Source of the DNA: Chelativorans petroleitrophicus
Lineage (GTDB): Bacteria > Pseudomonadota > Alphaproteobacteria > Rhizobiales > Rhizobiaceae
DNA: 64,000 nt
Assembly (NCBI RefSeq): GCF_025398195.1
Contig: NZ_JAODNV010000003.1
Coordinates: 1-64,000 of the forward strand
Direction: 5' to 3'
Shown: piece by piece, positions 2-24,222 of the stretch
Layout: every line of letters starts with the position of its first letter
How positions within the stretch are numbered: the stretch's first letter is position 1
Program-made: the position numbers and the translations under genes
Notes under the pieces: generated by a model
Databases searched by the model: none
Told to the model about the DNA's origin: nothing
Seen by the model: the letters and a program-made list of their open reading frames with translations, nothing else

Positions 2-3000
2 GGACTATCCCCGCGTGTGCGGGGGAACCCATTCCAAGCGGCGGGCGCCACCGAGAAGAACGGGACTATCCCCGCGTGTGCGGGGGAACCGGCTTTCGGC
101 GCCATCGGCGGCCTCTTTTCGTCGGACTATCCCCGCGTGTGCGGGGGAACCGAGAACGTTCGCCACGAAGTATGCGGGTGATTGGGACTATCCCCGCGTG
201 TGCGGGGGAACCGCGAGGCAACCGCCCATGATGTAATGGCCACGGGGACTATCCCCGCGTGTGCGGGGGAACCAGCCGTACTTCTCAGCAAGGAACTTCT
301 CTGCAAGGACTATCCCCGCGTGTGCGGGGGAACCGCCTCGAAGTAGCAGCGCTTTTTGGGATTGACGGGACTATCCCCGCGTGTGCGGGGGAACCTTTTG
401 GGCATAGCCCCACCACCATTACTTCCAGGGACTATCCCCGCGTGTGCGGGGGAACCGCCCCTTGCGAAGCTGCGGCCATATTCGATATGGGACTATCCCC
501 GCGTGTGCGGGGGAACCTTGGCGTCACAGTCGGCGTGATGGCTTCTCCGGGGACTATCCCCGCGTGTGCGGGGGAACCCGCTTTTGCGGCTCTGTCGATC
601 AGATGCGTCAGGGACTATCCCCGCGTGTGCGGGGGAACCTACTGGCGCTAAACGCCGCGCTGGCAAACGGCGGGACTATCCCCGCGTGTGCGGGGGAACC
701 CGGCGACCGGCCGGGGGCCGCGCCGCCGGCGTGGGACTATCCCCGCGTGTGCGGGGGAACCTCAGGCTCTTAACAAGAGCAAGGGGAAGACCGGGGACTA
801 TCCCCGCGTGTGCGGGGGAACCAAGTTTTGAACTCTGGCGTCTCGTCTGCTTTGGGGACTATCCCCGCGTGTGCGGGGGAACCACGACCTCCCGGAACTT
901 TCCGCCGTCAAGATGGGGACTATCCCCGCGTGTGCGGGGGAACCTGATTTGGGAATTCAAGACGCGAAACTTCACCGGGACTATCCCCGCGTGTGCGGGG
1001 GAACCGAGTACGACGAGCATTACAACGCGGCGGACTGGGGACTATCCCCGCGTGTGCGGGGGAACCGGCCGGACAAGCCAAGACCAAAACCCGGAAGGCG
1101 GACTATCCCCGCGTGTGCGGGGGAACCATACTTGTGTACGCATACGTCAGGGAGTACACGGGACTATCCCCGCGTGTGCGGGGGAACCATGCCGAAACCG
1201 TCAATGAAGCTTGCGATATGGGGACTATCCCCGCGTGTGCGGGGGAACCATCCCGTAATCGAGAACGGCAAGCTGGTGCTGGGGACTATCCCCGCGTGTG
1301 CGGGGGAACCTCGGCCGCAGCACTAGCGAGAGCTACTTGATAAGGACTATCCCCGCGTGTGCGGGGGAACCCCTCTATTTCGGCCATAGAAGGCCGCTGA
1401 CGCGGGACTATCCCCGCGTGTGCGGGGGAACCCGCGCCCGGCGAAGACCGTGCGTGACATGGGTGGGACTATCCCCGCGTGTGCGGGGGAACCTTTGCCG
1501 AACTGCAGAAGCTGCAGCCTGTCGAGGGACTATCCCCGCGTGTGCGGGGGAACCGCAGCGCCATTGCTGCCCTTCTTGTCGCATTCGGGACTATCCCCGC
1601 GTGTGCGGGGGAACCGGTCTCGGTCGTATTCTTCTTGGGAAACCATCGGGACTATCCCCGCGTGTGCGGGGGAACCACTGTGTTTTCGTCAAAGGCCGAT
1701 CCCGTGCCGGGACTATCCCCGCGTGTGCGGGGGAACCTGTCCATGATCTCCCTCAGGCGCTCGAATGTGGGGACTATCCCCGCGTGTGCGGGGGAACCTG
1801 CGCCAAAGTAGCCTTGCGGGCGAGTCCAGCGGGACTATCCCCGCGTGTGCGGGGGAACCGGTATTCGTTCGCGCGGATCCCCTCCTCAACCGGGACTATC
1901 CCCGCGTGTGCGGGGGAACCTTTCGCATAATCCAACAGTCAACAACAAAAGGGGGACTATCCCCGCGTGTGCGGGGGAACCTCGAAGCCTCTGAGTGCCC
2001 CCTTTGACCCACAGGGACTATCCCCGCGTGTGCGGGGGAACCGCTTGATTTGGCGCGCGCCGCCCATGTGCTAGGGGACTATCCCCGCGTGTGCGGGGGA
2101 ACCCGCGGGCAGAAGCGGCCGGCGTGAAGATTGTGAGGACTATCCCCGCGTGTGCGGGGGAACCTCTGTCACGCAATCGCGGGAGGCCGTGGCGCGGGGA
2201 CTATCCCCGCGTGTGCGGGGGAACCCTGTCCCATTCGCGGCCGCGCGTGCGGTCTTTGGGACTATCCCCGCGTGTGCGGGGGAACCGGCGATCTGCATCG
2301 GACAAACCGGCACGGGCGGGGACTATCCCCGCGTGTGCGGGGGAACCAAGCTCTCGTCCCAAATGGCATTATCCCATTCGGGACTATCCCCGCGTGTGCG
2401 GGGGAACCCCAGGGGCTGCGTGAGGAACAACCTCGCCAGAGGGACTATCCCCGCGTGTGCGGGGGAACCAATGGGTTGCCAGCAAGCTCGACGGATTCGC
2501 CCGGACTATCCCCGCGTGTGCGGGGGAACCACATGGCTCGAGTGGCGTCCGGCAAAGCCGCTGGGACTATCCCCGCGTGTGCGGGGGAACCTTTTGGGCA
2601 TAGCTCCGCCACCATTACTTCCAGGGACTATCCCCGCGTGTGCGGGGGAACCGTGCTACGATAATGAGCATTTTCTGGCGATGAGGGACTATCCCCGCGT
2701 GTGCGGGGGAACCTGTACGATTACGAGTCAAGTACTAAATGTACGAGGACTATCCCCGCGTGTGCGGGGGAACCCAGGTCGGACAGATCCTCTCCCCGTC
2801 TCTCAAGGGACTATCCCCGCGTGTGCGGGGGAACCGCTGTGACGGCACAGGGGCGCGGCTCATGCCAGGGACTATCCCCGCGTGTGCGGGGGAACCCGAG
2901 CATCAGCAGCGCGCTTGATGCGATTGAGGGGACTATCCCCGCGTGTGCGGGGGAACCCTCATCCGAGTAGATGTGAAACTTCGGGAACGTGGACTATCCC

Positions 3001-4848
3001 CGCGTGTGCGGGGGAACCACAATTGTCGAGCTGATCTGCCCCGCAAGGTCGGGACTATCCCCGCGTGTGCGGGGGAACCCCGTGGCCATGCCTCGGCGGC
3101 GGCTTGGCGCGGGGACTATCCCCGCGTGTGCGGGGGAACCGTTTCGGCATTCGCCAACATCTCCCATGCCGCGGGACTATCCCCGCGTGTGCGGGGGAAC
3201 CTCGATACGCTCGACCGACGCAAGCGCCTCGAAGGGACTATCCCCGCGTGTGCGGGGGAACCGTGGTCGCCGCTTGGGAACTTCTGCCGGATGCCGGACT
3301 ATCCCCGCGTGTGCGGGGGAACCCCTGCTTACGAGGAATCCAGCGCAGGCTGCTCGGGACTATCCCCGCGTGTGCGGGGGAACCTATCCGTAGGAGCGCG
3401 ACACTTGACCGTCGCCGGGACTATCCCCGCGTGTGCGGGGGAACCTGCTGTGGTGTCGGCCGGCCGGGGGTAAGCCCGGGACTATCCCCGCGTGTGCGGG
3501 GGAACCGGTTTCATACTTGATGGTCGGTGTCGTGTTTTGGGACTATCCCCGCGTGTGCGGGGGAACCTGGCTTGGCCGTGACGGAACCGCTCTCAGGCTG
3601 GGACTATCCCCGCGTGTGCGGGGGAACCCTGCGGCTGGTGGACCTTGAACTGGGTGAGCAAGGACTATCCCCGCGTGTGCGGGGGAACCAGGCGTTTCGG
3701 CGTGTAATTTTCCATGATCGGGGGACTATCCCCGCGTGTGCGGGGGAACCGTTGAAATTTGCGAAGATTTTGTGTGGCCGACGGGACTATCCCCGCGTGT
3801 GCGGGGGAACCCGGATCGACTACATTCGCCGATTCCGCGATCAAGGACTATCCCCGCGTGTGCGGGGGAACCCCTCTCGATCCTCAAGACGGTCTTCCTG
3901 CCACGGGACTATCCCCGCGTGTGCGGGGGAACCGACGAAGATTCGGAAGTTTACGCATATTTCGTGGGACTATCCCCGCGTGTGCGGGGGAACCTGTAAG
4001 ATTCGCTCCTGCACGAGGTAGGACTTGGGACTATCCCCGCGTGTGCGGGGGAACCGTGCACTGCTTCAGACTTAGATCGGATTCGGTGGGACTATCCCCG
4101 CGTGTGCGGGGGAACCCGATGTGGAACCCAGAGCCATGGCCGCCCTTAGGGACTATCCCCGCGTGTGCGGGGGAACCCCGGGCGAGGGCAGCTGTAACCC
4201 TGCCCTTAAGGGACTATCCCCGCGTGTGCGGGGGAACCCCGCCGAAGATCACGCCGACCGGCCCGAAGCGGGGACTATCCCCGCGTGTGCGGGGGAACCC
4301 AGGTCACGCCATTCGGGAACTTGATCTGACAGGGACTATCCCCGCGTGTGCGGGGGAACCAGCATCCTTTGTAGTATGCTACACGCTGCATCGGGACTAT
4401 CCCCGCGTGTGCGGGGGAACCCCAGCACGCGTCGACCAGCTCGCCAGCGCAGAGGGACTATCCCCGCGTGTGCGGGGGAACCCGCTGGTCGCTCGACGAC
4501 TGCCAGTGAGCCAGGGGACTATCCCCGCGTGTGCGGGGGAACCGTGTAAACTTTGCTCCCGCTACCCAACGTATTGGGACTATCCCCGCGTGTGCGGGGG
4601 AACCCGGCAGGCAGGTATCGACGTGGCAGCATTCGAGGGACTATCCCCGCGTGTGCGGGGGAACCCCGCCGCTCTGCCACGGCAGACCGACAAATCTGGG
4701 ACTATCCCCGCGTGTGCGGGGGAACCCAGGGCGCTGAGATAGTCGGCTCGCAATTTTTGGGACTATCCCCGCGTGTGCGGGGGAACCACCGTCACCTTAC
4801 CCGGGTGATCCCGGAGCATGGGACTATCCCCGCGTGTGCGGGGGAACC
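2..4848 (-). CRISPR. Type I-E CRISPR array, at least 80 repeats and 79 spacers, open at the left edge
   Basis: A 28-bp repeat recurs at position 2+61n from n=0 to n=79, so repeat plus spacer is always 61 bp (33-bp spacers). On the transcribed minus strand the repeat begins GGTTCCCCC and ends GGGGATAGTCC, with a short GC-rich stem in the middle, as in type I-E repeats cut by Cas6e. I saw no base change in any repeat copy. The newest spacer should be 4788-4820, beside the leader; the old, usually degenerate end lies outside the window. The base next to each spacer's leader-proximal end is not fixed (see findings). Spacers at 396-428 and 2592-2624 are near-duplicates; the rest look unrelated by eye. 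Confidence 0.99.
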
Positions 4849-14135: not shown

Positions 14136-14180
14136 TGGAGCGGGCGAAGGGATTCGAACCCTCGACCCCAACCTTGGCAA
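14136..14180. repeat. attL: 45-bp copy of the tRNA-Gly 3' part
   Basis: These 45 bases are identical to 24148-24192, which lie inside the intact tRNA-Gly gene and run from its 3' CCA to its anticodon loop. Left of the repeat is the cas3 side of the chromosome; right of it, about 150 nt on, is the integrase. This is the signature of a tyrosine-recombinase element that recombined at a tRNA anticodon loop. Between attL and int lies a short direct repeat AGCTAGTT (14265-14272, 14275-14282), possibly a regulatory or integrase arm site. Confidence 0.93.
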
Positions 14181-14334
14181 TTGCAGGGTGACCATACCGC
14201 GCAAGTGCGGACTTGTAAACATGTGAGAGTATAAGCTGTTGCTTCTGCTGGGGAAATGGCGCAGAGCTAGTTCGAGCTAGTTTGCGCGGAAACGGGGACT
14301 TCTCGCTCCCCCGCTGCTCCCCCAGGAGATGCCT

Positions 14335-15603
14335 ATGGCCAAGAGCAAGAACCGAAAGACCTTCAATCCGCAGTGGATCGAGCGGCTGAAGTACGATCCA
14401 AAGCTCGCGCCGCCGAGCGGCCGCATGGAGATAGAAGACGAGGCGTGCCCTGGGCTCCTCCTTCGGGTCACCCCGCGCGGCGTGAAGTCGTTCAGCGTCA
14501 TCTATAAGGTGCCCGGCGAGGGCGGTGTCAGCCCGAACGGCCGTCTTCTCGTCGGCCGACAGCATCGAATCACCCTGGGCACCACCCCGCCGATCGAGCT
14601 GAAGGATGCCCGGCAGCAGGCTCGCGACCTCATGCAGGCCGCGTCCGAGGGACGGGACCCGCGCGGCGAGCGACGCGAGGAAAACCTTATCCGACACACC
14701 AACACCTTCGAAGCAGTCCGAAAGCGCTTCATCGATCGGATCAAGCCCAACGTGCAGGCATGGAAGAATGTGGAGCGCGTCCTGAAGCTGCACGTGGAGC
14801 CCCATTGGAAGGACAAGCCCCTCCGGGACATCCGCCGCGCCCACGTACATGAGGTGCTGGACGCGCTCATAGCGGAGGGCAAGGTTGGCACTGCACGCGA
14901 GGTCAAGAAGCACCTCTCCCGGTTGTTCAACTGGGCCGTAGATCGCGAGATCATCGTGGATAACCCGGTGCACGGCCTTAAGCGCGACGAACTGGGGCCC
15001 AACGAGGAGGCGGGGCGCGCCCTCACAGACGAGGAGTTGCGATACATCTGGAAGGCGGCCGATGGCCTGGGCTATCCCTTCGGTCCCATGTACAAGCTGC
15101 TCATTCTCACCGGGCAGCGGCGTGGTGAATGGGCTTCGGCAATGCGTTCGGAGGTGAACACCGAAAAGCGGTGGCTGGAGGTGCCGAAGGCTCGCTACAA
15201 GGGCGGCCGGGATCATATTGTGCCCATGGCGGACGAGGTGTTTTCGATCTTTGAGGGGCTGCCAGTTTGGGAGGGCAAGGATTATTACCTGCTCTCCACG
15301 ACGGACGGGAAGGTGCCTGTGTCAGGCTTCTCAAAGGCCAAGGCCCGGCTGGATGCAGCCGTTCTCAAGGCCATGCGCAAGGCGGACCCGGAAGCGCAAC
15401 TGACCGATTACCGCGTGCATGATTTCCGCGTTTCCTGCAAGTCCCGGCTGGCCAGCTTGGGATTTAAGCCAGATATCAGCGAAGCGGTGCTTGGGCATGC
15501 CAAGGTCGGGCTGGAGAGGACTTACAACAAGCACGAATATTTAGACGAGAAGCGCGAGGCGCTCGCCGCCTATGCCAAGCATGTCATGGAGGTGGTGAAG
15601 TGA
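14335..15603 (+). CDS. int: P4-type tyrosine integrase
   Basis: A 422-residue integrase of the P4/CP4-57 family. The N-terminal arm-binding domain (PGLLLRVTPRGVKSFSVIYKV; GTTPPIELKDARQQARDLM) is followed by the SAM-like core-binding domain (about 125-210) and the catalytic domain with arginine in LLILTGQRRGEW, HDFRVSCKSRLASLG, LGHAK and the nucleophile tyrosine in ERTYNKHEY. It sits beside attL in the direction expected for integration into a tRNA 3' part. An ATG six bases upstream is in frame, but AGGAG directly abuts it, so the second ATG (6-nt spacing) is better. Confidence 0.95.
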   Translation: MAKSKNRKTFNPQWIERLKYDPKLAPPSGRMEIEDEACPGLLLRVTPRGVKSFSVIYKVPGEGGVSPNGRLLVGRQHRITLGTTPPIELKDARQQARDLMQAASEGRDPRGERREENLIRHTNTFEAVRKRFIDRIKPNVQAWKNVERVLKLHVEPHWKDKPLRDIRRAHVHEVLDALIAEGKVGTAREVKKHLSRLFNWAVDREIIVDNPVHGLKRDELGPNEEAGRALTDEELRYIWKAADGLGYPFGPMYKLLILTGQRRGEWASAMRSEVNTEKRWLEVPKARYKGGRDHIVPMADEVFSIFEGLPVWEGKDYYLLSTTDGKVPVSGFSKAKARLDAAVLKAMRKADPEAQLTDYRVHDFRVSCKSRLASLGFKPDISEAVLGHAKVGLERTYNKHEYLDEKREALAAYAKHVMEVVK

Positions 15604-16361
15604 GTCGGTTCACCGAACAGGATGCCGCTCGACTGGCAATCCTAGCTGTCCGTCCACGCAACGGCCAGACGGAGGAGGAGGCCCAACAGAATGCGCCGCT
15701 CCTCGGGAAGGAGGCGGCGCTGCTCGAAGCGCTTCGGGCGGCGGAACGGGCTCATGACGAAGCCATGCGGGAAGCAAGATCCGACGCAGAGCGGCTGGAG
15801 GACCTCAAGAGCTCTCGGGAGCGACACCATGTCTTCTTCAAGTACATCGACGCCGCCTTAGCTGAGTGGCGTAACATGGATGGGGAGACCCGGCTCGGGC
15901 TGGCATGGCACGCCCATTCAACTGGTTCGAACGGCGGGGATTATGACGAAACGTCGAGCTATCTCGATGCTATCCTCGCGCGGTTCGATGCATCTCTTGG
16001 CGAGATGCATCGGGCAGCCCATTCGGCGTCATCTGATATTGAGTTTTCACCCGGCCGTAAGAAGGGCATCAGCCAGAGTGTAGGCGCAAACAATGTGCCC
16101 CTCGCTCCCCTCGAAGCCTTTGTGGGGGTTCTCCGCGATTTTTGGCGGAGCACAGCGGGCGAGAAATTTACGGTGGAATTTGGTGAAGTGGTGGATAGTC
16201 GAGGCATCCGGGTGACAGAGCCCAAGAGCGCGGCGGCGCGACTGGTTTTCGTTGCGACGGAGAAACTGACCAATGCCAGGGGCAAGCGTCTCTATGAGAT
16301 GGGCACGGTCGAGAACGCTATGCGCCGAGCTCGCGCCAATTCTCCCGATTTCCTGACCTAA
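15600..16361 (+). CDS. Unknown element protein with N-terminal coiled coil (253 aa)
   Basis: A 253-residue protein translated from a GTG that overlaps the int stop codon (GTGA), so it is coupled to the integrase. Residues about 35-75 (LLGKEAALLEALRAAERAHDEAMREAR and on) are charged and heptad-like. The rest is mixed, with a tryptophan-containing middle (LAEWRNMDGETRLGLAWH) and a C-terminal half that looks globular. No signal peptide or membrane segment. I do not recognise a family; genes in this spot of P4-like elements are often accessory or regulatory. Confidence 0.75.
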   Translation: MSRFTEQDAARLAILAVRPRNGQTEEEAQQNAPLLGKEAALLEALRAAERAHDEAMREARSDAERLEDLKSSRERHHVFFKYIDAALAEWRNMDGETRLGLAWHAHSTGSNGGDYDETSSYLDAILARFDASLGEMHRAAHSASSDIEFSPGRKKGISQSVGANNVPLAPLEAFVGVLRDFWRSTAGEKFTVEFGEVVDSRGIRVTEPKSAAARLVFVATEKLTNARGKRLYEMGTVENAMRRARANSPDFLT

Positions 16362-16429
16362 TGGTCCCCGTGTTGTAATCTGCGGGATCGGCCACCCTCC
16401 GGGCAAGTAAATAGCCTGGAGGTACGGCG

Positions 16430-16687
16430 GTGGCCGAACGTTTCATCAGCATTCGCGAGGTGACGGACAGGGTCTCCCTCTGTCGCACCGAGATATACGA
16501 CCGTATGAGGGCGGGAAAGTTCCCGCAGTCCGTCGCCTTGGGCCCGCAGAAGGTGGTTTGGGTCGAGAGCGAAATTGATGCCTGGATGCAGGCGCGGATT
16601 GAGAACGCCGAAGACGGCATCGACTGGCGGCGCTGGCGCGCTCGGAAGGCCGTCAACTCGCGGGGAGATCGGAAAGTTGCCGCATGA
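16430..16687 (+). CDS. alpA: AlpA-family excisionase/regulator
   Basis: An 85-residue winged-helix protein of the AlpA (MerR-like) family: FISIREVTDRVSLCRTEIYDRMRAGKFPQSVALG is the typical helix-turn-helix, followed by the WVESEIDAWMQARI recognition tail. Such proteins drive excision or act as small activators in P4-like elements. It starts with GTG, preceded by GGAGG at 7 nt. Its stop codon lies 67 nt before the helicase start. Confidence 0.9.
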   Translation: MAERFISIREVTDRVSLCRTEIYDRMRAGKFPQSVALGPQKVVWVESEIDAWMQARIENAEDGIDWRRWRARKAVNSRGDRKVAA

Positions 16688-16753
16688 AATGGCCCGCGCT
16701 GGTGGAGGAGAGCACGGGCCTGTTTCTGCTGACCGAGCACAACGGAGACTGTT

Positions 16754-18460
16754 ATGCCGACCGAAGTATCCAATATCCCTCCCTCCTCCGAAATCACTTT
16801 CGACGCCCCTCCCGGTCCCGAGGAGGTCGACAAGACCATCAGTGCCCAGCCGTGGGTGCTCCGCGCAAGGCTCACCTACGATGCGTACGCCACGCGGTGC
16901 AGGGCGGCCGGGCGTCAGCCGGACATCGCGGAGTGGCTTGAGCATCAGAGCCTCACGGAAGAAGAGCTCCAGCTTCTCGATGATTTGATAGAGGCCCGGC
17001 GGGGCGACTTCTGCCATGGCGATATCGGCCCGAAGTTCGTCATTCGCGAGTTCGGCAACAAGGCGCGTGTCGGATGGTTTGACGACCGAGGCGAACTTGT
17101 CACGATGAGCTTCGCGGAGTTCGCCAACGCTCATATTGAAAAGCTGGTACAGGTCGGCCACGACGACAACGGTAAGCCCATCCTTAGGCCGCTGGCAAAG
17201 CACTGGCTTCAGCATCCGCTTACCCGCCGGTACGACCGCGCAGAGTTCTTGCCCGGCATAGAGCCGGAGAACATGCCGGAGGGTGTGCTGAACTTATGGC
17301 GCGGCTGGCCTCCCGGGCTTGTACCCGGCTGGGCGGACACCCGCCTGGGCCCGGACGGCGAGGCCGTACCAATCACGGATGGTCCGTTTGACGGGCCGGA
17401 GATGCCGTCCGGCTATTGCGACATGTTCCTTGACCACATGTATGAGAACATGTGCGGAAGTGACGAGGTGGTGTTTCGGTACCTTCTCGGCTGGATGGCG
17501 GATGCGTTCTGGAACCCTGGCCCATGCGAGACCGCTATCGTGCTCAAGGGCCCGCAGGGCTCCGGCAAGACCTTCTGGGCCGAACGGTTCATGGAGTTCT
17601 TCGGCGTCCACGCACTCACGCTGGACGATCCCGAGCAGGTGGTCGGCAACTTCAATAAGCACCTGATGAACAAGAGCGTGATCTTCGCGGATGAGGCGTT
17701 CTTTGCCGGCAACCGAAAGCACGCGGCCAAGCTCAAGACGCTCATCACGCGGCCCGACTTGTTCGTTGAACCCAAGGGCGTGGATGGTTTCGTCGCGCCG
17801 AAGATGTTCCGGCTCATCATGGCGTCGAACGACGAGCACGTCATTCAGGCCGAACGGGACGACCGTCGCAATCTCGTGCTCGACGTCAACGCTGGGCCGC
17901 ACAATCAGGACCGCGATTACTTCGCACGCATGCATGAGGAATGGCGTTCCGGCGGGCGTCGGGCGCTGTTTCGCTGGCTGACCGGAGCGTGGTGGGGGCA
18001 GGCCGTCGGAGAGAAGCGGTTCCGCATGTGGGATCGGCCTATCACCGCAGGTCTTCAGGACCAGAAGGATATGAGCCTCCCGCGCCCGCAGATGGTCATT
18101 CATAATATGCTACGCGACGGCGAACCACCGGCCGCCTTCCTCCCAAACGTGCGGGAAGGCACGATCTTCGTGGCGACGCGGTTGCTGGCGCAGGAGAACC
18201 GCCTTGGGCCCGAACACGATCGTGCGCTTGGGGATGCGTTGCGAGTTCTGGCTGGCGAAGGAGCCACTAGCGTCCGCGAGTATCTAGGCGAGGGCAGCGC
18301 TCGTCGCCAGTATCGCGGATACTGGCTTCCGCCCCTCGGCATCTGTAGGCAGCGGTGGGAGGCCCACCATGGGCGGCAGGTCAGGTGGCCGTCCGGTGTC
18401 GATACGTGGGCCATCGAGATCGGCATGGAACGGGACCCGGAACAGGAGATGCCATTCTAA
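16754..18460 (+). CDS. SF3-like replicative helicase (DUF5906-type)
   Basis: A 568-residue protein with the P-loop helicase core of virus and plasmid replication proteins: Walker A GPQGSGKTF (about 266-274), Walker B KSVIFADEAFF (about 307-317) and an asparagine sensor RLIMASNDEH (about 353-362). The N-terminal third is not recognisable as a primase. The ATG has GGAG 6 nt upstream. It likely unwinds the element's own origin; the iteron field begins at its last codons. P4 alpha-protein plays this role in P4, but the two are not obviously the same family. Confidence 0.85.
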   Translation: MPTEVSNIPPSSEITFDAPPGPEEVDKTISAQPWVLRARLTYDAYATRCRAAGRQPDIAEWLEHQSLTEEELQLLDDLIEARRGDFCHGDIGPKFVIREFGNKARVGWFDDRGELVTMSFAEFANAHIEKLVQVGHDDNGKPILRPLAKHWLQHPLTRRYDRAEFLPGIEPENMPEGVLNLWRGWPPGLVPGWADTRLGPDGEAVPITDGPFDGPEMPSGYCDMFLDHMYENMCGSDEVVFRYLLGWMADAFWNPGPCETAIVLKGPQGSGKTFWAERFMEFFGVHALTLDDPEQVVGNFNKHLMNKSVIFADEAFFAGNRKHAAKLKTLITRPDLFVEPKGVDGFVAPKMFRLIMASNDEHVIQAERDDRRNLVLDVNAGPHNQDRDYFARMHEEWRSGGRRALFRWLTGAWWGQAVGEKRFRMWDRPITAGLQDQKDMSLPRPQMVIHNMLRDGEPPAAFLPNVREGTIFVATRLLAQENRLGPEHDRALGDALRVLAGEGATSVREYLGEGSARRQYRGYWLPPLGICRQRWEAHHGRQVRWPSGVDTWAIEIGMERDPEQEMPF

Positions 18461-18741
18461 GTCGGCTCCCGACTTGCGTCCCGACTTGCGCTTTTCCTTG
18501 GCGGAACAATTGGTTAGGTCGGTTTTAAGTCGGGAAGTCGGTAAGTCGGCGGTTTCTATTCCGTATGCAAATTGCCCAGGAGGGGGCGTGGTGGGGTCGG
18601 GCAGCTGGATTTCGGTAGGCTCTGTTTTAACCCGACTTAACCGACTTAACCGACTTAGAGAGAGCTAAGAGATTGCATTGGCAAGGAAATTGGCAAGTCG
18701 GGTTGTAAGTCGGATATAGGCCGGAAGTAGACTCCCGACTT
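18459..18741. repeat. Iteron field of 12 AAGTCGG heptamers, candidate replication origin
   Basis: AAGTCGG occurs on the plus strand at 18459, 18527, 18535, 18543, 18695 and 18707, and as CCGACTT at 18469, 18481, 18632, 18641, 18650 and 18735. Two tight triplets face each other (18527-18549 with 8-bp period; 18632-18656 with 9-bp period), giving the field overall dyad symmetry around a central non-repeated segment. It lies directly after the helicase gene in the geneless 18461-18945 stretch. This matches the layout of iteron-type origins; repressor operators are the alternative. Confidence 0.8.
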
Positions 18742-18936
18742 GTTTTCCATTCCCCTCCTCCCTGGGCATGGAGTGAGCGCCAGCGAAACCGGCCCATTCA
18801 GTCCCTAAAAAGAGAGCTGATCCGGCCGCTCCCGCATCGGAAATTTGCACTAGCTCCCCCTCCGCTCCCCCAGCGCGATCACCAGAACCAATAACCTCAA
18901 CAATTGCAGCGTAATGGCGCGAGTGGCCCCAACCTA

Positions 18937-18957
18937 GGGAGGGGTATGCTCCCCTCC
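18937..18957 (+). promoter_or_regulatory. Hairpin over the ribosome-binding site of the small terminase gene
   Basis: GGAGGGG (18938-18944) pairs perfectly with CCCCTCC (18951-18957) across a 6-nt loop that contains the ATG at 18946. The hairpin would hide the only purine-rich ribosome-binding site here, so it may restrain terminase translation. Confidence 0.4.
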
Positions 18958-19401
18958 ATGAGCACCAAGAGCACAGCCCTCGTCGCCCGCGCCGGACGCG
19001 GCAAGAGCGCCCCGGTCAGCATCACCCCAGCCGGTCTCGCCCTCGTGGAGGAGCTGGCCGGTGAGGGACAGGACTTCCGCAGCATAGCGAAGCGCCTGGG
19101 CATCAACCACCAGACCTTCAACGTCCTGCGCAAGAAGGATGAGGCGCTGGCGGAGGCCGTGGAGCGAGGTCAGGCCGTCCTAGCGGACGAGGTCACCCAC
19201 CTGCTGCTGAAGGCGGCCCGCAAGGGCAACGTGGTCGCGGCCATTTTCCTCGCCAAGGCCCGGCTCGGCTGGACAGACACGCCCCAGCCCAAGCGGCCAG
19301 AGGTCGCCGTGCAGATAAACCTTCCCGGTGCAATGGACGAGGCGGCTTACGTCCGCATGGTCGAGGCAGAGGTGAAGGAGGCGGCAGATGGCGACGCCTA
19401 A
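18946..19401 (+). CDS. Probable terminase small subunit
   Basis: A 151-residue protein with a central helix-turn-helix (DFRSIAKRLGINHQTFNVLRKKDEALAEAVERGQA) and an acidic C-terminus (MVEAEVKEAADGDA), the form of many TerS proteins that bind phage DNA and bring it to TerL. The call relies on overlap with terL (14 nt) and on this HTH pattern. The start is uncertain: ATG at 18946 lies in the loop of a hairpin, and ATG at 18958 is the alternative. Confidence 0.8.
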   Translation: MLPSMSTKSTALVARAGRGKSAPVSITPAGLALVEELAGEGQDFRSIAKRLGINHQTFNVLRKKDEALAEAVERGQAVLADEVTHLLLKAARKGNVVAAIFLAKARLGWTDTPQPKRPEVAVQINLPGAMDEAAYVRMVEAEVKEAADGDA

Positions 19402-20776
19402 GGTCACCGCGCCCACGCCCTGGCAGGAGCGGGCCCTCGCCGTGCCAGAGCGCTACAACCTCGCCCTCCTGGGTGGCCGTGGTTCCGGCAAGACCACCGC
19501 TCTGGCGCTGATCGTCCTCCGCCATTGCGTGCAGTACGAGGACAAGGCCCGCGTGCTCATCTTGCGCGCCACCTACAAGTCGCTCGCCAACCTTTGGGAT
19601 GAGCTTGAGGCACTGTTTTCCGCCGCCTTCCCCGGTGGCGTCCAGTCCAATCGCGCCGACTTCGTCATCCGCTGCCCGAACGGGGCGGTGGTCACCCTGG
19701 GCAATCTCTCCACGCAGAAGGACGTGGCGAAGTGGCAGGGGCAGGAGGCGAACCTCCTCGCCGTGGACGAGATCACGAACTTCACCACGCTCCGGCACAT
19801 CAACATGCTCCGGGCCAACCTGCGCGGCCCAGCCGGGGTTCCCACGCGCATGCTCATTCTCGGCAACCCTGGTGGCCCGCTGCACGCGACCATTGCCCGG
19901 ATGCACGTGCATGGCCGTGTGCCGTGGAAGCCCTATACGTTGGACGACGGTAGCGAATGGGTCTACGCACCCAGCACCTTCATCGATAATCCGACTATCG
20001 ACCAGGACCGCTACGCCCGCAGCATCATCGCGTCTGCCGGTGGTGACCGCGCCTTGTCCGAGGCGTGGCTCAACAACAACTGGAACGACCTCGCTGGAGC
20101 CTTCTTCGGCGACGTTTGGGGCGACCACCTTATCCTCCCCACCTCCTCATGGCGTGTGCCCCCTGGGCCCCTCCGCGAGCACGGCTGGTATTCCTGCGTG
20201 GCTCTGGATTGGGGCTGGTCCGCACCTTCGGTCGCGGTTCTGGCCGTCAGCCCACGGCGGCCGGGGCTCCTTGGCCCGGCTGGCCGCGTCTATCCGAAGG
20301 ATAGCTGGATTGTCGTGGACGAGGTGCACAGCGCCCGCTCGGACGATCCTTCCCTGGGTAAGGGATGGCCGCCGCAGATGCTGGCGGAGGAGGTTTTGGC
20401 CGCATGCGAGCGCCACAACATCCGGCCGCACGGCGTGGGAGACGATGCGCGCGGGCTTCAGAACGATACCCTGCTGGAGCAGTTCCGGTTCCATGGCCTC
20501 TACCTGCAGAAGCCGACGAAGGACCGCATTTCCGGCTGGACCAGGCTCAAGTCGCTCATGAGCGCCGCCCGCGATGGCGACCCGGACACTCCGGGCATCT
20601 GGATCAGCGAGCGGTGCCGCCTCGTAATGGAGACCTTGCCGCTTCTGCCGCGCGACGATGTGCGGCCAGAAGATGTGGACACGTCGGCCAATGATCACGC
20701 CGCCGACGCGCTCCGCTACCTCGTCAACTCCCCCACACGAATTGTCACGTCCGGCCGAACCACCGGCGATTACTGA
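19388..20776 (+). CDS. terL: Phage terminase large subunit
   Basis: A 462-residue packaging motor. The ATPase has Walker A LLGGRGSGKTT (about 27-37) and Walker B NLLAVDEIT (about 122-130). The C-terminal RNase H-like nuclease shows acidic residues in VALDWGW (D274), GVGDDARG and NDHAADALRY (about 435-443). All motifs look intact, so the gene is probably functional. GGAGG lies 6 nt before the ATG, within terS. No portal or capsid gene follows. Confidence 0.95.
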   Translation: MATPKVTAPTPWQERALAVPERYNLALLGGRGSGKTTALALIVLRHCVQYEDKARVLILRATYKSLANLWDELEALFSAAFPGGVQSNRADFVIRCPNGAVVTLGNLSTQKDVAKWQGQEANLLAVDEITNFTTLRHINMLRANLRGPAGVPTRMLILGNPGGPLHATIARMHVHGRVPWKPYTLDDGSEWVYAPSTFIDNPTIDQDRYARSIIASAGGDRALSEAWLNNNWNDLAGAFFGDVWGDHLILPTSSWRVPPGPLREHGWYSCVALDWGWSAPSVAVLAVSPRRPGLLGPAGRVYPKDSWIVVDEVHSARSDDPSLGKGWPPQMLAEEVLAACERHNIRPHGVGDDARGLQNDTLLEQFRFHGLYLQKPTKDRISGWTRLKSLMSAARDGDPDTPGIWISERCRLVMETLPLLPRDDVRPEDVDTSANDHAADALRYLVNSPTRIVTSGRTTGDY

Positions 20777-20787
20777 GGAGAACTGTC

Positions 20788-21564
20788 ATGACCACCGGGC
20801 TCGAAGACACGATTGAGACCGTACCGATCCGCGCCGATGTACCTGTTTCGATGCACCCGAGCAGCCTTATCCCTTTCGGGAAGGTGCTGAATCAAGAAGG
20901 CACAATCGGTGTGCAGGCACTGGCCGCCGCTCGCGAGGCCCTTACCACGGCCTACACCGCCTTCTCCCAGGTGGAGGACGCGGTGAAGTCCCTCCCCCTG
21001 GGCGATGAAACTCGAATGATTGGTGGTCGCCCGACGAAGGTGTCGGCAGGGGCTATCGAGGAGCTTGTGCAGGCCGTCGGAAAGTCGGAGGAGCGCGTGA
21101 TCGGGGCAGTTCAGCGACGTTACGATGAGCTCAGCCGTCACCATGGGGCGCTCAATACGCGCGTTGCCAACGCTCTCGACGTACCTAGTCGAAAGACGCC
21201 CGAGGGCTTGGCGGTGGCCGGTGCGATTTGGGCGCACGTGAAGTCGCTGCCCAGCGATAAGCGCATGTCGTTCCTGATGAAAGCGGTGGAGGACGGCGAC
21301 AAGACCACGGTGGCCGCCGTGCTGCATGCACCGGCTTACCTGTCCGGCATGACCGACAAGCAGATGGCGACGTTACGTCACCGGGCGGCCCACGTGTTCG
21401 CACCTACGGATGCGGCCCAGTTGGAAGCGGTGGAGGCTATGATGGACCGCGTCGCGGCGGCAGGCTCCCGCGTGGTCGAGCGCTACGGACGGGTGCGGGA
21501 GATGGCGTCTCCGAGTGCGGCCCATTCCAAGCAGAAGATCAAGGCGCTCGCGGAGGGAAAGTGA
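20788..21564 (+). CDS. Unknown element protein after terL (258 aa)
   Basis: A 258-residue soluble, mainly helical protein preceded by a GGAG ribosome-binding site. Residues about 45-125 look coiled-coil-like (AAREALTTAYTAFSQVEDAVKS; AIEELVQAVGKSEERVIGAVQRRYDELSRHH). It occupies the slot where tailed phages carry the portal gene, but it is far too short and does not resemble a portal. It could be a scaffold, a packaging adaptor or a satellite-specific factor; I cannot choose. Confidence 0.75.
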   Translation: MTTGLEDTIETVPIRADVPVSMHPSSLIPFGKVLNQEGTIGVQALAAAREALTTAYTAFSQVEDAVKSLPLGDETRMIGGRPTKVSAGAIEELVQAVGKSEERVIGAVQRRYDELSRHHGALNTRVANALDVPSRKTPEGLAVAGAIWAHVKSLPSDKRMSFLMKAVEDGDKTTVAAVLHAPAYLSGMTDKQMATLRHRAAHVFAPTDAAQLEAVEAMMDRVAAAGSRVVERYGRVREMASPSAAHSKQKIKALAEGK

Positions 21565-21836
21565 TGCTGTCTCGTGCCTATCGGGAAGCGCAGAAGCGTA
21601 TTCAGGCGACGGCACAGCAGCGCGCTATGCTTGCCGTGCGTGGCGACTTCGAGGCGTCCCGGCATGACCTTGAGTGCCTGAAAACGGGTGACCTTTTCTC
21701 TTACCTCGCTGCGAAGGACGAAGCTACCAACGGCCGCTACCAGCCGCCCTCCTTTCTGGCGCGACGGCTCCGGGAACCATCCATCGCCCGGTATCTCGCA
21801 GCCCGCGCACGTTTACGGAAGCGGAGCAATGGCTGA
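21564..21836 (+). CDS. Small basic unknown protein (90 aa)
   Basis: A 90-residue, arginine-rich protein (SRAYREAQKRIQATAQQRAML at the start; ARYLAARARLRKRSNG at the end). GGAGG lies 7 nt before the ATG, and TGATG overlaps the upstream stop, so it is coupled to the 258-aa gene. No family recognised; its charge suggests nucleic-acid contact. Confidence 0.65.
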   Translation: MLSRAYREAQKRIQATAQQRAMLAVRGDFEASRHDLECLKTGDLFSYLAAKDEATNGRYQPPSFLARRLREPSIARYLAARARLRKRSNG

Positions 21837-22008
21837 CCGAAAGCTAAAGCCTTCCGAACAGCGCCGCATAGACCAGCAGCAGGCCCTCCTTGAAGCCATT
21901 CGCCGCTCGCACGAGCACCGCGTTGAGGAGGCCAAGATGGAGGAGGCTGGACGCCGCCACCTGCTGGGCAAAATATTGCAGGAGGCACGGAAACGTGGCG
22001 GAGCCTGA
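21829..22008 (+). CDS. Small helical unknown protein (59 aa)
   Basis: A 59-residue, highly charged helical peptide (KPSEQRRIDQQQALLEAIRRSHEH and on) starting at ATG 21829, overlapping the upstream gene by 8 nt and the downstream gene by 14 nt. The tight overlaps and the near absence of gaps support it as a gene. Its function is unknown; the ribosome-binding site (GGAG, close to the ATG) is only fair. Confidence 0.55.
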   Translation: MADRKLKPSEQRRIDQQQALLEAIRRSHEHRVEEAKMEEAGRRHLLGKILQEARKRGGA

Positions 22009-22354
22009 GCCTCGTATCGCGGCACTCAACTTCAAGCGTCAGCCCGGCCCCCGCTGGGCTCAGATGCAGGTCGGCATGACTGTGCCAGACCTGCTGGCCT
22101 TGGGCCTACCAAAAGGGCAGATCATCGAGCGAGTGCACTTAGGCCAGATTGAATTTCAGCCGCCAATCACGTCCAAAAACGGCACCATCATCTCCAAGGT
22201 CGAGCCGAATCAACCACCGACGCGGCCCTCTTCTCTCCCTATCCGTCGCTGCCTATGTTGTGGAAAGCCGTTCCGAAGCGCAGGGCCCGGAAATCGTTTG
22301 TGTGACGACTGTCGCCGTAACTCCCGATCCCTTTCTCCCTATGCGCCGGATTAA
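21995..22354 (+). CDS. Zinc-ribbon protein (119 aa)
   Basis: A 119-residue protein from a GTG with AGGAGG 9 nt upstream. The C-terminal part carries two cysteine pairs (RRCLCCGKPF and RLCDDCRR), the layout of a small zinc ribbon. The middle (TVPDLLALGLPKGQIIERV) resembles a short helical DNA-binding segment. Zinc-ribbon proteins of this size are common in phage accessory regions; no specific role can be given. Confidence 0.7.
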   Translation: MAEPEPRIAALNFKRQPGPRWAQMQVGMTVPDLLALGLPKGQIIERVHLGQIEFQPPITSKNGTIISKVEPNQPPTRPSSLPIRRCLCCGKPFRSAGPGNRLCDDCRRNSRSLSPYAPD

Positions 22355-22441
22355 CGCTGGCAGGTTCTTGTTGTCTTCCTCGCATGCTGGCGAGATCGTT
22401 TCTCCGCAACTGAGAGTTGCCCACAAGAAAAGGAGCTCGAC

Positions 22442-22684
22442 ATGACGAAGAAGATCACTCCCCGCAAGACCAAGCCCGCCCGCCAGAGCAAGGTCGCCTC
22501 TCTCATGGAGAAATTCCTCGCGGCAGTTGCCGATCAGGCGTTCGAGGTCGAGGCCACCGCCAAGCGCTTGGGCGTCACGCCGAAGATGGTTCGCAACTGC
22601 ATCGATCAGCTTCGGCGGAAGGGCGGCAAGGCCGCCGTCGCGAACGTTGGGAAAGGCACCTTTCAGGTGGTTGCCCGGCCGTGA
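22442..22684 (+). CDS. Small putative DNA-binding protein (80 aa)
   Basis: An 80-residue basic protein with a lysine-rich start (TKKITPRKTKPARQSK) and a helix-turn-helix-like stretch (VEATAKRLGVTPKMVRNCIDQLRRKGG). AAAGGAG lies 8 nt before the ATG. It may regulate the element or coat DNA. Its stop overlaps the GTG of the following lipoprotein gene. Confidence 0.65.
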   Translation: MTKKITPRKTKPARQSKVASLMEKFLAAVADQAFEVEATAKRLGVTPKMVRNCIDQLRRKGGKAAVANVGKGTFQVVARP

Positions 22685-22944
22685 CCCGCGCCGCTTCCAT
22701 CCTGCTCGCCGCCGCCCTCTCTGGGTGCGCGGCGAGCACCGATCCGCACCTCCGGGCCTTCTACGCCAATTGGCTGCCGCCCGAAGCCCACGGCACCAAA
22801 GCTCCTGACCCGCGCTTGGATGGCCCGCTTGGCTCCGGCTACGGCCCCGACCGGACCTATGTCGTGAAAGACGGCAGAACCGTCGCGACCCTTCCCGGTC
22901 ACCCTGGGCAAGGGGCGCGTTTTGTCTACGTCCGTAACAAGTAA
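22681..22944 (+). CDS. Small lipoprotein (87 aa)
   Basis: An 87-residue protein from a GTG overlapping the upstream stop (GTGA). The N-terminus is a short lipoprotein signal with a good lipobox (ILLAAALSGC, cysteine about residue 17). The mature part is glycine- and proline-rich. In phage elements such proteins can be superinfection-exclusion lipoproteins or Rz1-like outer spanins, but no partner lysis gene is present here. The ribosome-binding site is weak, so translation probably depends on coupling. Confidence 0.6.
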   Translation: MTRAASILLAAALSGCAASTDPHLRAFYANWLPPEAHGTKAPDPRLDGPLGSGYGPDRTYVVKDGRTVATLPGHPGQGARFVYVRNK

Positions 22945-22946
22945 AG

Positions 22947-22974
22947 GGCCCCGGCCTCATGGGCGACCGGGGCC
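22947..22974 (+). terminator. GC-rich hairpin after the lipoprotein gene
   Basis: GGCCCCGG (22947-22954) and CCGGGGCC (22967-22974) form a perfect 8-bp stem directly after the stop codon. There is no T-run, so it may be a pause or RNA-stabilising hairpin rather than an intrinsic terminator. Confidence 0.4.
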
Positions 22975-23175
22975 AACTCCTCACGGAGACGGCCAGGACA
23001 GGAGCTACCCCGGCCAATCATCACGATAAGTGGCCCGCCCCGGCCCTTCACTTGGGCCAATTCTCCTCCGAATCACCCCGTATTGGCTCCCGTGCAGTGG
23101 GGACCACTTCTGTGCGGATGTGCAGTCACGCCTCGCGGTGGTCGTGGGGCGGCGAAAAAGCGAAAGGAAACAATT

Positions 23176-23520
23176 ATGCCAGGTGAAGTTGAAACCGCTA
23201 ACTGGCGCGTCCTTTTCGAGGAACTACCGAAGGCGATCAACCAGCTTGAGAGCCACGACGCACACCACTCATTGGAGGCGGCGCTGTGCCTCAGGATGGC
23301 GCTGGACGTTCTGCGCTGCGGTGGCTCGCTGGAGGTCTACGACCAGCTCATCTTCGGCATGAGCAAGATCGCGGAGACTGGCACCTCTCGGAGGAGCCTG
23401 CCCAGGGACACGTGCTGGCTCCTCGAATGCTTTGCCGACGATTTCGCGGAGTGGCAGTGCCAGGACCGGGACGCGGAGCTTGTTGCCCGGCTGAGCGAGC
23501 TGCCTGTCACTGCCGACTGA
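23176..23520 (+). CDS. Unknown element protein (114 aa)
   Basis: A 114-residue acidic, helical protein starting at ATG 23176 (AGGA 7 nt upstream). It contains a cysteine-bearing hydrophobic stretch (LEAALCLRMALDVLRCGGSLEVYDQL) and ends in an acidic helix. The frame is open farther upstream, but no ribosome-binding site supports a longer form. No family recognised. It lies in the cargo part of the element, between two hairpins. Confidence 0.6.
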   Translation: MPGEVETANWRVLFEELPKAINQLESHDAHHSLEAALCLRMALDVLRCGGSLEVYDQLIFGMSKIAETGTSRRSLPRDTCWLLECFADDFAEWQCQDRDAELVARLSELPVTAD

Positions 23521-23561
23521 CGAGCGGAGCCGCCCCGAGGCAGGGCGACTCCTCTTTTCAC

Positions 23562-23590
23562 TTGATTTACTGAAATCCCTGAGTTACCTT
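23562..23590 (+). promoter_or_regulatory. Candidate promoter of the SeqA-N/RAMA-like gene
   Basis: TTGATT (23562-23567) and TACCTT (23585-23590) are 17 nt apart, in an AT-rich patch 28 nt before the next ATG. This would let the last gene of the element be read on its own. Confidence 0.4.
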
Positions 23591-23618
23591 CTCTCCATCG
23601 AAACCCTGGAGGTATGCG

Positions 23619-24044
23619 ATGAGCGAGATGCGAACGATTGAGATTGACTTCGAGGTGCACAAGCGGATCGAGCTTGAGCGCACCAGCTTCAACGAGCCGC
23701 CCAACACGGCGCTGCGCCGCCTGCTCGGCATTGAGGGAGCGGCCCCCGCTGCCCCGCCTCAGACGGCAGCCCCATCTGGCCGCCCTTGGGCGGGCAAGGG
23801 CGTGACACTGCCTCACGGGACCGAGCTGCGCATGGAGTACAATGGCCGGGTCTACACGGGCCGTATCGAGAATGGCCGGTGGCTGGTCGAGGGCAAGGAG
23901 TTCAAGAGCCCCTCGGCGGCGGCGGGCGGGGTGGCGCTCACCAAGGACGGTCGCCACACGAGCCTCGACGGGTGGATATACTGGCACGTGAAGCGCCCCG
24001 GCGACGCGGGCTGGACCGCCATTCGGACGCTTCGGAGCCACTGA
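23619..24044 (+). CDS. SeqA-N-like plus RAMA/DUF4357-like domain protein
   Basis: A 141-residue two-part protein. Residues 4-37 (MRTIEIDFEVHKRIELERTSF then TALRRLLG) resemble the ribbon-helix-helix oligomerisation segment of SeqA. Residues about 60-135 have the pattern of RAMA-like domains: a GTELRMEYNGRVYTGRIENG start, EFKSPSAAAG in the middle and SLDGWIYWHVKRPGD at the end. RAMA domains occur with DNA methylases and other defence proteins and are thought to read DNA. GGAGG lies 6 nt before the ATG. It is the attR-proximal gene, a typical cargo position. The domain calls are by pattern, not by search. Confidence 0.65.
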   Translation: MSEMRTIEIDFEVHKRIELERTSFNEPPNTALRRLLGIEGAAPAAPPQTAAPSGRPWAGKGVTLPHGTELRMEYNGRVYTGRIENGRWLVEGKEFKSPSAAAGGVALTKDGRHTSLDGWIYWHVKRPGDAGWTAIRTLRSH

Positions 24045-24098
24045 GGCAAGCCCTCATGCCGCTCCCCCGGCTGCTCCCCGGAGGCCAGAAAAGCAAGA

Positions 24099-24116
24099 GG
24101 CCGCCTCGCGGCGGCC
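24099..24116 (+). terminator. Terminator-like hairpin at the right end of the element
   Basis: GGCCGCC (24099-24105) pairs with GGCGGCC (24110-24116) across TCGC, followed by a T-richer stretch ending in CTTGTTTT. It closes the last element gene just before attR. Confidence 0.5.
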
Positions 24117-24147
24117 CTTGTAACTTCTTGTTTTCCCGTGGGATTTT

Positions 24148-24192
24148 TGGAGCGGGCGAAGGGATTCGAACCCTCGACCCCAACCTTGGCAA
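24148..24192. repeat. attR: 45-bp att core inside tRNA-Gly
   Basis: Identical to attL at 14136-14180. The core runs from the tRNA 3' CCA through the T-arm to the anticodon loop, so integration left a whole tRNA at this end. The two copies are 10,012 bp apart. Confidence 0.93.
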
Positions 24193-24222
24193 GGTTGTGC
24201 TCTACCCCTGAGCTACACCCGC
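24148..24222 (-). tRNA. tRNA-Gly(GCC)
   Basis: Read on the minus strand, the gene starts GCGGGTGTAGCTCAGGGG and ends CGCCCGCTCCA. Acceptor arms GCGGGTG/CGCCCGC pair with one G-U-like position, the D-arm has AGCTCAGGGGTAGAGC, the anticodon loop is TTGCCAA (GCC), and the T-loop is GGTTCGAATCC. CCA is encoded. It is the integration target of the element on its 3' side. Confidence 0.97.

Follow-up and report, generated by a model that had tools for sequence, protein, structure and literature searches.

Why would a 10-kb integrated element carry a complete DNA-packaging terminase when no gene for a virion shell is recognised in it? The question is raised by positions 14136-24192 of a 64,000-nucleotide stretch of the Chelativorans petroleitrophicus genome (contig NZ_JAODNV010000003.1; hereafter the window), which a sequence-only reading had put forward as a candidate phage satellite. 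Our analysis supports that proposal: the same gene plan recurs in many separate elements, the genes for the integrase and the large terminase subunit (TerL) are intact, and the two outcomes said to speak for a decayed prophage (virion genes behind the same left half in relatives; disrupted terL or int in most copies) were not what we found. We consider it likely that the element is a phage satellite whose own terminase fills the procapsid of a helper phage with the satellite's DNA; the helper, the encapsidation and the use of the terminase are all things that we infer from sequence.

The element and its packaging motor

A single exact 45-nt direct repeat bounds the element with a repeat-to-repeat spacing of 10,012 bp, which bears out the attachment (att) repeats, the tRNA-Gly site and the approximate size read from the sequence earlier; we take this size to be P4-class. 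The main genes all point rightward, in the order integrase, a 253-amino-acid (aa) gene, AlpA, superfamily 3 (SF3)-type helicase, iterons, small terminase subunit (TerS), TerL, ORF8 and seven small genes. The gene list given previously stood, with the 253-aa gene between int and alpA added and the TerS start moved, position 18958 being a more likely start than 18904. The principal features are as follows.

14136..14180, no strand: left att copy (tRNA-Gly 3' end), exact 45-nt repeat
14329..15603, + strand: tyrosine integrase, 424 aa (PF00589, 6.9e-13; PF13356; phrog_1, 1.1e-50)
16430..16687, + strand: AlpA-type regulator/excisionase, 85 aa (PF05930, 6.2e-16)
16754..18460, + strand: SF3-type helicase (DUF5906/VapE-like), 568 aa (PF19263 DUF5906, 1.3e-19)
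18461..18957, no strand: iteron field, probably the origin of replication and perhaps a packaging site (11 AAGTCGG/CCGACTT in 497 bp)
18958..19401, + strand: TerS, 147 aa (phrog_309, 8.7e-13 to 9.1e-13)
19388..20776, + strand: TerL, 462 aa (phrog_2, 1.3e-25; PF03237, 1.2e-9)
20788..21564, + strand: ORF8, 258 aa, predicted mainly helical, of a family found beside these terminases
24148..24192, no strand: right att copy, exact 45-nt repeat, within an intact tRNA-Gly
24148..24222, - strand: tRNA-Gly(gcc), which remains whole; the right att copy is its 3' part

The 14 genes and one overlapping frame were scanned with a cut-off of E 1 or E 5 against Pfam and PHROGs. No portal, capsid, protease or tail family was matched in any of them, the small genes included, in agreement with the absence claimed earlier. 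A primase domain was likewise unrecognised in the 568-aa helicase in these scans; since the match to PHROG 'primase' profiles is confined to the C-terminal part of those profiles, such a domain is not shown. The iteron motif occurs 11 times in the field compared with three times in the remaining 9,470 bp of the element and, to its right, 0.15 times per kb over 39,750 bp of the window, and the commonest 8-mer of the field has six copies, compared with a maximum of three in 200 first-order Markov resamplings.

In an alignment of five TerL relatives, Walker A, the DE of Walker B and three acidic positions are invariant; we take the acidic positions to be the nuclease triad, and the Walker names are likewise our assignment. 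Ratios of nonsynonymous to synonymous substitution (dN/dS, Nei-Gojobori) lie between 0.026 and 0.165 in 11 of 11 TerL pairs, including the window against L033 (0.121) and L034 (0.165), two values that are rough, with dS >1. These ratios indicate that TerL is under purifying selection. Constraint is weaker on ORF8 (0.19-0.47) and on TerS (0.05-0.63 where dS >0.1), and the integrases and helicases of the pairs are of mixed kinship.

Relatives with the same plan

Of 297 genomes of the order, 13 have a TerL match at E<=1e-3, and of 385 genomes of the class, 8 have one at E<=1e-20; both figures count the window's own genome, and just three others (G094, G443 and G560) exceed 250 bits. The surroundings of all three share the plan of integrase, helicase/primase, TerS and TerL. 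An AlpA-type gene is present too, matched directly in G443 and G560 and recognised by clustering in G094. The G094 and G443 elements, both with an ORF8 homologue, lie within att repeats at tRNA-Lys (9.8 kb) and tRNA-Thr (10.4 kb), and the G560 element lies at tRNA-Ser with a 14-base repeat. Pattern-based TerL scans covered 84,980 species genomes (best 80 of 92 confirmed loci kept) and IMG/VR (best 80 of 99). Among the loci kept, the closest TerLs, at 78-82% identity, come from six Sphingomonadales loci, one unclassified alphaproteobacterial bin and one viral contig. A cut-off of TerL E<=1e-40, which kept 79 of the 80 genome loci (the other was a duplicate) and removed 40 of the 80 viral loci, gave a comparison set of 123 loci: 79 genome and 40 viral loci, the window and three further ones. 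Duplicate or short loci (L002, L003, L004, L015, L016, L030 and L077) were dropped before counting.

TRNA-linked repeats bound 53 of the 123 loci, 29 of them strongly (repeat E<1e-6); the latter have a median size of 11,055 bp and a 5-95% range of 9.5-13.6 kb, under a script that accepted 5-20 kb only. Separate elements at tRNA-Lys, -Thr, -Gly and others, each with its own att repeats, have the same layout, so that the gene set to be sought in related genomes recurs in many separate tRNA elements. The tRNA-Gly repeat of the window is common to six relatives (L039, L041, L042, L043, L048 and L055), two of them with small changes, and the window integrase is 58% identical to that of L024. Judged by these layouts, the window element is not a lone remnant but a member of a widespread family with the same plan.

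Sorting by gene clusters, with two type A loci placed by hand, divides the 53 bounded elements into 20 of type A, 20 of type B, 11 of type C and two unassigned. Type A has the window layout, with ORF8 behind terL or, in few cases, before it. In type B a different helical protein of 250 aa, c6, is usually encoded after terL and a serine recombinase mostly before terS; the recombinase cluster (phrog_125) is present in 29 loci, usually just upstream of terS (e.g. L086, L097 and L105). In type C, genes for a scaffold (phrog_206) and a major capsid protein (phrog_247) adjoin terS-terL. Examples are the ~10-kb tRNA elements L052, L049, L059 and L102, in which no portal was found; the scaffold was not called in L102. 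Apart from integrase, TerL and capsid protein, the 11 bounded type C elements have these genes of 280 aa or more: a helicase/primase-cluster gene in nine (that of L065 alone was itself scanned), a helicase in L052, a methyltransferase (by eye) in L058 beside its helicase, and an unmatched 521-aa gene in L049. A portal was not found in these 11 elements, and the 521-aa gene of L049 could still be one.

Two IMG/VR contigs have direct terminal repeats: the type C contig L121 (9,839 bp, 47-bp repeat with tRNA-type sequence, 9.79 kb if circular) and L117 (7,866 bp, 123-bp repeat, opened inside ORF8, 7.74 kb if circular). Both fit excised circles, assembly at repeats being an alternative source. In the pair L035 and L036, TerL (dS 0.33) and ORF8 (dS 0.77) are related, and the integrase and helicase are very different (the L035 integrase call is short), a pattern that fits the module exchange expected of a mobile, modular element.

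The genes that relatives carry beyond the shared set (integrase, AlpA, helicase, TerS, TerL, ORF8, c6 and serine recombinase) were collected from the 40 bounded type A and B elements; these 191 genes formed 136 clusters, of which 135 were scanned with PHROGs, the one left out being an antisense frame of the window. Twenty-one of the 23 longest were tabulated as methyltransferases, restriction enzymes, a reverse-transcriptase protein, regulators, an ATPase, primase or helicase and unknowns, and no portal, capsid or tail family was matched among these 21. With PADLOC, the best 25 of 329 families were methyltransferases. A 679-aa protein with a reverse-transcriptase match (L090:13588-15624) is cargo of a type B element. 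Within classifiable genes, then, in none of the 40 elements is the same left half followed by portal, capsid and tail genes.

The simpler reading offered earlier, a decaying prophage that has lost its structural genes, would account for TerS and TerL as phage-type genes, and phage-like contigs with a TerL of the same clade do exist (L112, 50% identical to the window). A TerL frame of at least 1300 nt is open in 111 of the 123 loci; of the 12 shorter frames, three are at contig ends, seven belong to one TAG-bearing lineage, and two, as decay would predict, appear broken. Among the bounded elements, an integrase of at least 320 aa was called in every one of types A (20) and C (11) and in 19 of the 20 of type B, and TerS beside TerL in 42 of the 51 typed ones. 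Neither the disrupted core genes nor the relaxed selection of a decayed prophage is therefore seen: the same reduced plan and size recur in many separate elements with int and TerL intact, TerL appears to be under purifying selection, and genes after terL are conserved. We regard a decaying prophage as very unlikely.

The two apparently broken copies, with a split or shortened TerL frame, are in a Moraxella sp. bin (L071) and in Bradyrhizobium vignae (L107); some copies may decay. The TAG-bearing lineage of the TerL clade comprises viral contigs (L118, L120, L122, L126, L127, L131, L134 and L213) with in-frame TAG in terS, terL and a tail-assembly-like gene; L213 has a 981-aa tape-measure gene with seven. 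In L122 the AlpA-like, 417-aa and ORF8-like genes are TAG-free, and single TAGs occur in a 341-aa early gene and in two further genes. One TerL TAG column is Q in 70 of 105 homologues, the remaining TAG columns are not Q-rich, and no suppressor tRNA was found in the contigs of the lineage. The late genes of this lineage are possibly readable only in a TAG-recoding state. Four further loci from the TAG pattern scan (L212, L216, L217 and L211) are other elements and were set aside.

The terminase clade and ORF8

When the window TerL was compared with 50,697 phage records, 526 gave a tblastn match, all below 60% identity (26.6-30.3% among the 40 of 526 matches listed); no recorded phage is thus close to it. 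A direct search of phage DNA with the element gave a single 63-base match in the tRNA region and nothing else. A quick tree of 139 TerLs gathers every row of types A, B and C into one 111-row group, from which eight annotated phages taken from the 526 records stand apart. A careful tree of 72 rows was built with Colucci left out of the annotated phages, 12 rows (mostly long branches) omitted, types B, C and others thinned, and no root inferred. It places 59 rows in a single group with 100/100 support, outside which are seven annotated phages, L145 and five unplaced prophage-like rows.

Five phage-like contigs are nested in the satellite TerL group: L112, L113 and L114, which contain PHROG portal genes, and L148 and L150, in which a ~500-aa gene after terL is read as a portal from its size and place alone. 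The tree neighbours of the window's own TerL group are L112 and L113. The int-alpA-helicase half was not found in the available DNA of L113, L148 and L150; the L112 and L114 contigs begin 0.7-1.0 kb before TerL, too short to show it. Since phage-like contigs lie inside the group, the motor has probably been exchanged between phages and satellites, in either direction as far as an unrooted tree goes. Type A is not a single clade, with at least 11 changes in the careful tree, and the histories of ORF8 and TerL are thus partly separate.

The ORF8 family is represented in 31 loci by clustering and 53 by family profile. The ORF8 profile matches 20 of 20 type A elements and no type B or C element, and the c6 profile 20 of 20 type B and no type A or C element, which is partly so by construction. 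An AlphaFold2 model of ORF8, made with 32 family members, is helical with one hairpin (pLDDT 92). Foldseek searches gave no match at E<=1e-3 for ORF8 among viral and solved structures (the best being a tail fibre protein at 0.025 among viral structures and cytolysin-like chains at 0.10 in the PDB) or for c6 (best 0.079, PDB left out). Neither protein had a tblastn match at E<=0.01 in the 50,697 phage records; ORF8 matches the uncharacterised phrog_29430 weakly (0.0097). The ORF8 and c6 models are both helical, with long and short helices in similar order. A single family for the two was rejected: a profile comparison gave a probability of 9%, and no locus is matched by both profiles.

The ORF8 profile also matches L145, a 5.9-kb phage-like contig with a head-morphogenesis gene, at 1.6e-8, and has no match in L112, L113, L114, L148, L150 or eight phage stretches compared. 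The idea that ORF8 is strictly satellite-only was rejected on account of L145; from its distribution, ORF8 is characteristic of these elements, not proved exclusive to them. The same relative slightly lowered our already low estimate that ORF8 is an adaptor, a role taken up below. The other genes of the element are:

15600..16361, + strand: orf2, 253 aa, no family, between int and alpA
21561..21836, + strand: orf9, 91 aa, in a cluster of 4 loci
21829..22008, + strand: orf10, 59 aa, non-significant terminase match (0.17)
21998..22354, + strand: orf11, ~118 aa, start uncertain (phrog_13335, 7.9e-12)
22442..22684, + strand: orf12, 80 aa, helix-turn-helix-like (phrog_323, 4e-5)
22681..22944, + strand: orf13, 87 aa, lipoprotein-like signal (by eye), without significant family
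23176..23520, + strand: orf14, 114 aa, with relatives in L042 and L043
23619..24044, + strand: orf15, 141 aa, weak RAMA-like match (PF18755, 1.8e-6; 28.2 bits, cut-off 35.2)

A phmmer search with orf2 at E 1e-3 gave no relative among the loci compared at that stage; at its position five relatives have a 204-262 aa gene (cluster c24), unrelated to orf2 by search. The orf11 protein, whose C-terminal part is zinc-ribbon-like, is matched in 21 other distinct loci. The presence of several unclassified small genes, the lack of a fold match at E<=1e-3 for ORF8 and the type B protein, and the ORF8 relative near a head-morphogenesis gene in L145 would all be compatible with a mini-phage whose virion genes have diverged past recognition. 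Capsid and portal folds are, however, unlike the ORF8 model, which is predicted with high confidence to be mainly helical, and the ~3.4 kb downstream of terL leaves too little room for head and tail genes, which makes a mini-phage highly improbable.

Known satellites, possible helpers and a packaging model

Gram-negative phage-inducible chromosomal islands (PICIs) are described as having an integrase, att sites, AlpA, a replication module with an origin, no shell genes and sometimes TerS (PMC6092414). The element shares with those described there (EcCICFT073 and PmCI172) the integrase and specific att site and the AlpA-type regulator, along with a candidate replication module, and as far as genes are recognised it too lacks structural genes, its small unclassified genes remaining. 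It adds a complete TerL, whereas the PICIs of that account have TerS or a helper cos site, and its replication module is a helicase followed by iterons without a recognised primase domain, where PICIs have primase/rep and an origin. Capsid-forming PICIs, as presented in PMC10690885, carry both terminase subunits, as here, and in addition capsid, protease, portal, connectors and HNH, none of which is recognised in the element. Held against these two descriptions, the earlier claim that TerS plus TerL without a shell is an unusual set holds. Having most of the sequence features of PICIs, the element looks, and probably works, like one; the complete motor and the unrecognised primase domain set it apart, and membership is not claimed.

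P4-like satellites resemble it in having an AlpA-type gene and no recognised shell (PMC10690885, PMC4936722 as far as they describe them), and differ in that P4 is packaged by the P2 terminase, whereas the element encodes its own TerS-TerL. None of the Psu, Delta and Sid families turned up in the general Pfam scans of the element, in which no search was aimed at them. The satellite phiAH14b of Pseudomonas sp. ANT_H14 has an integrase, AlpA, primase and helicase and is packaged in its helper's capsid; it measures 16.8 kb, and in the account of PMC4936722 its authors identified no terminase gene, for which reason we rejected it as a terminase-bearing precedent. The Streptomyces satellites MiniFlayer and MulchRoom have TerS and TerL like the element, plus portal, capsid and scaffold (as outlined in PMC10690885). 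VEIMEs and tycheposons are further proposed phage-satellite families, according to the summary in PMC11389934. The mark of a VEIME is encapsidation in virions; the relatives of the element include the two circle-like viral contigs L117 and L121.

The left flank of the element has a cas3-like gene and an array of clustered regularly interspaced short palindromic repeats (CRISPR), and the right flank ordinary chromosomal genes (names by eye). The array (window 2-4848) consists of a 28-bp repeat in 80 exact copies (I-E-like by eye) and 79 spacers, each 33 bp long. A helper was sought through the spacers, whose best match, 17 identical bases (E 0.003) or 19 at 95%, was taken as chance, and in the host genome. 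Four portal matches there, all to PF04860 and none to PF05133, lie on other contigs or at a distance on the element's own contig, and a second TerL of this family is absent; both routes to a helper were rejected. The host loci with portal matches (other names by eye) are two islands that resemble capsid-forming PICIs, with an integrase-like gene and capsid-size and terminase-size genes (L208, G000:C16; L210, G000:C23:150001-170000), a gene-transfer-agent-like cluster that also matches Terminase_6 (L209, G000:C9) and a prophage-like head module (L207, G000:C13). These loci might interact with the element; no evidence ties them to it.

In the model that we favour, self-packaging into a helper's procapsid, helper infection or induction would lead AlpA and the integrase to excise the element as a circle. 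The helicase would start replication at the iterons, yielding concatemers, and TerS would mark satellite DNA. The satellite's TerL, rather than that of the helper, would dock on the portal of the helper procapsid and fill it, and helper tails would complete the particle. ORF8, encoded directly behind TerL, may fit the procapsid or the motor to the satellite, through head size or access to the portal; of all the steps this is the weakest, and we hold it doubtful. Alternatively, the terminase could mainly interfere with or redirect helper packaging while the helper's own terminase moves the satellite DNA, as might be expected from the interference with helpers and the several routes of borrowed packaging described for PICIs (PMC6092414, PMC10690885, in the parts concerned). 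That alternative seems unlikely to us: none of the presumed catalytic positions for ATPase and nuclease activity varies among the five TerLs aligned, and TerS usually stands beside TerL, where a decoy would presumably need less.

Several points weigh against self-packaging by a satellite. The host genome has one TerL of this family and no second, and the 79 spacers have no convincing match to the element or to other phage-like loci of the host. Because satellites seeded the TerL search, sampling favours them; genes of relatives were called by a home-made gene caller, and 24 of the 53 bounds rest on 12-18 identical bases. Unrecognised structural genes are possible in type A and B relatives, because the PHROG matches listed cover the 25 commonest of 173 matched families and five of the 21 tabulated genes have no match; in the window, orf2, 9, 10, 13 and 14 fit no class. 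Among 29 bounded type A/B elements (window included) with a post-helicase gap of at least 150 bp, the commonest 8-mer beats all 200 resamplings in 15 gaps and is at or below their maximum in 14. By this crude test the iteron field is common, not universal.

Self-packaging would place the element in a wider group. We lean, by a little, towards a widespread superfamily of motor-carrying satellites, from Pseudomonadota, Acidobacteriota and Planctomycetota bins, that would borrow the shell including the portal; one branch, type C, would also bring its own coat and scaffold and apparently no portal. We found no description of such a superfamily in the open-licence literature. The shell-less satellites portrayed in PMC6092414 and PMC10690885 redirect the helper's motor with at most TerS. 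Should the superfamily be real, terminase-portal pairing would be loose enough for a parasite's motor to work on foreign portals, and the likely adaptor would be ORF8 or, in type B, its counterpart. A large family with a selected, complete motor and no recognised portal would make the specificity of motor-portal docking testable. The TerL clade together with ORF8 or the type B gene would serve as a marker for satellites in Pseudomonadota and beyond, and could find those that capsid-based or TerS-based definitions might miss.

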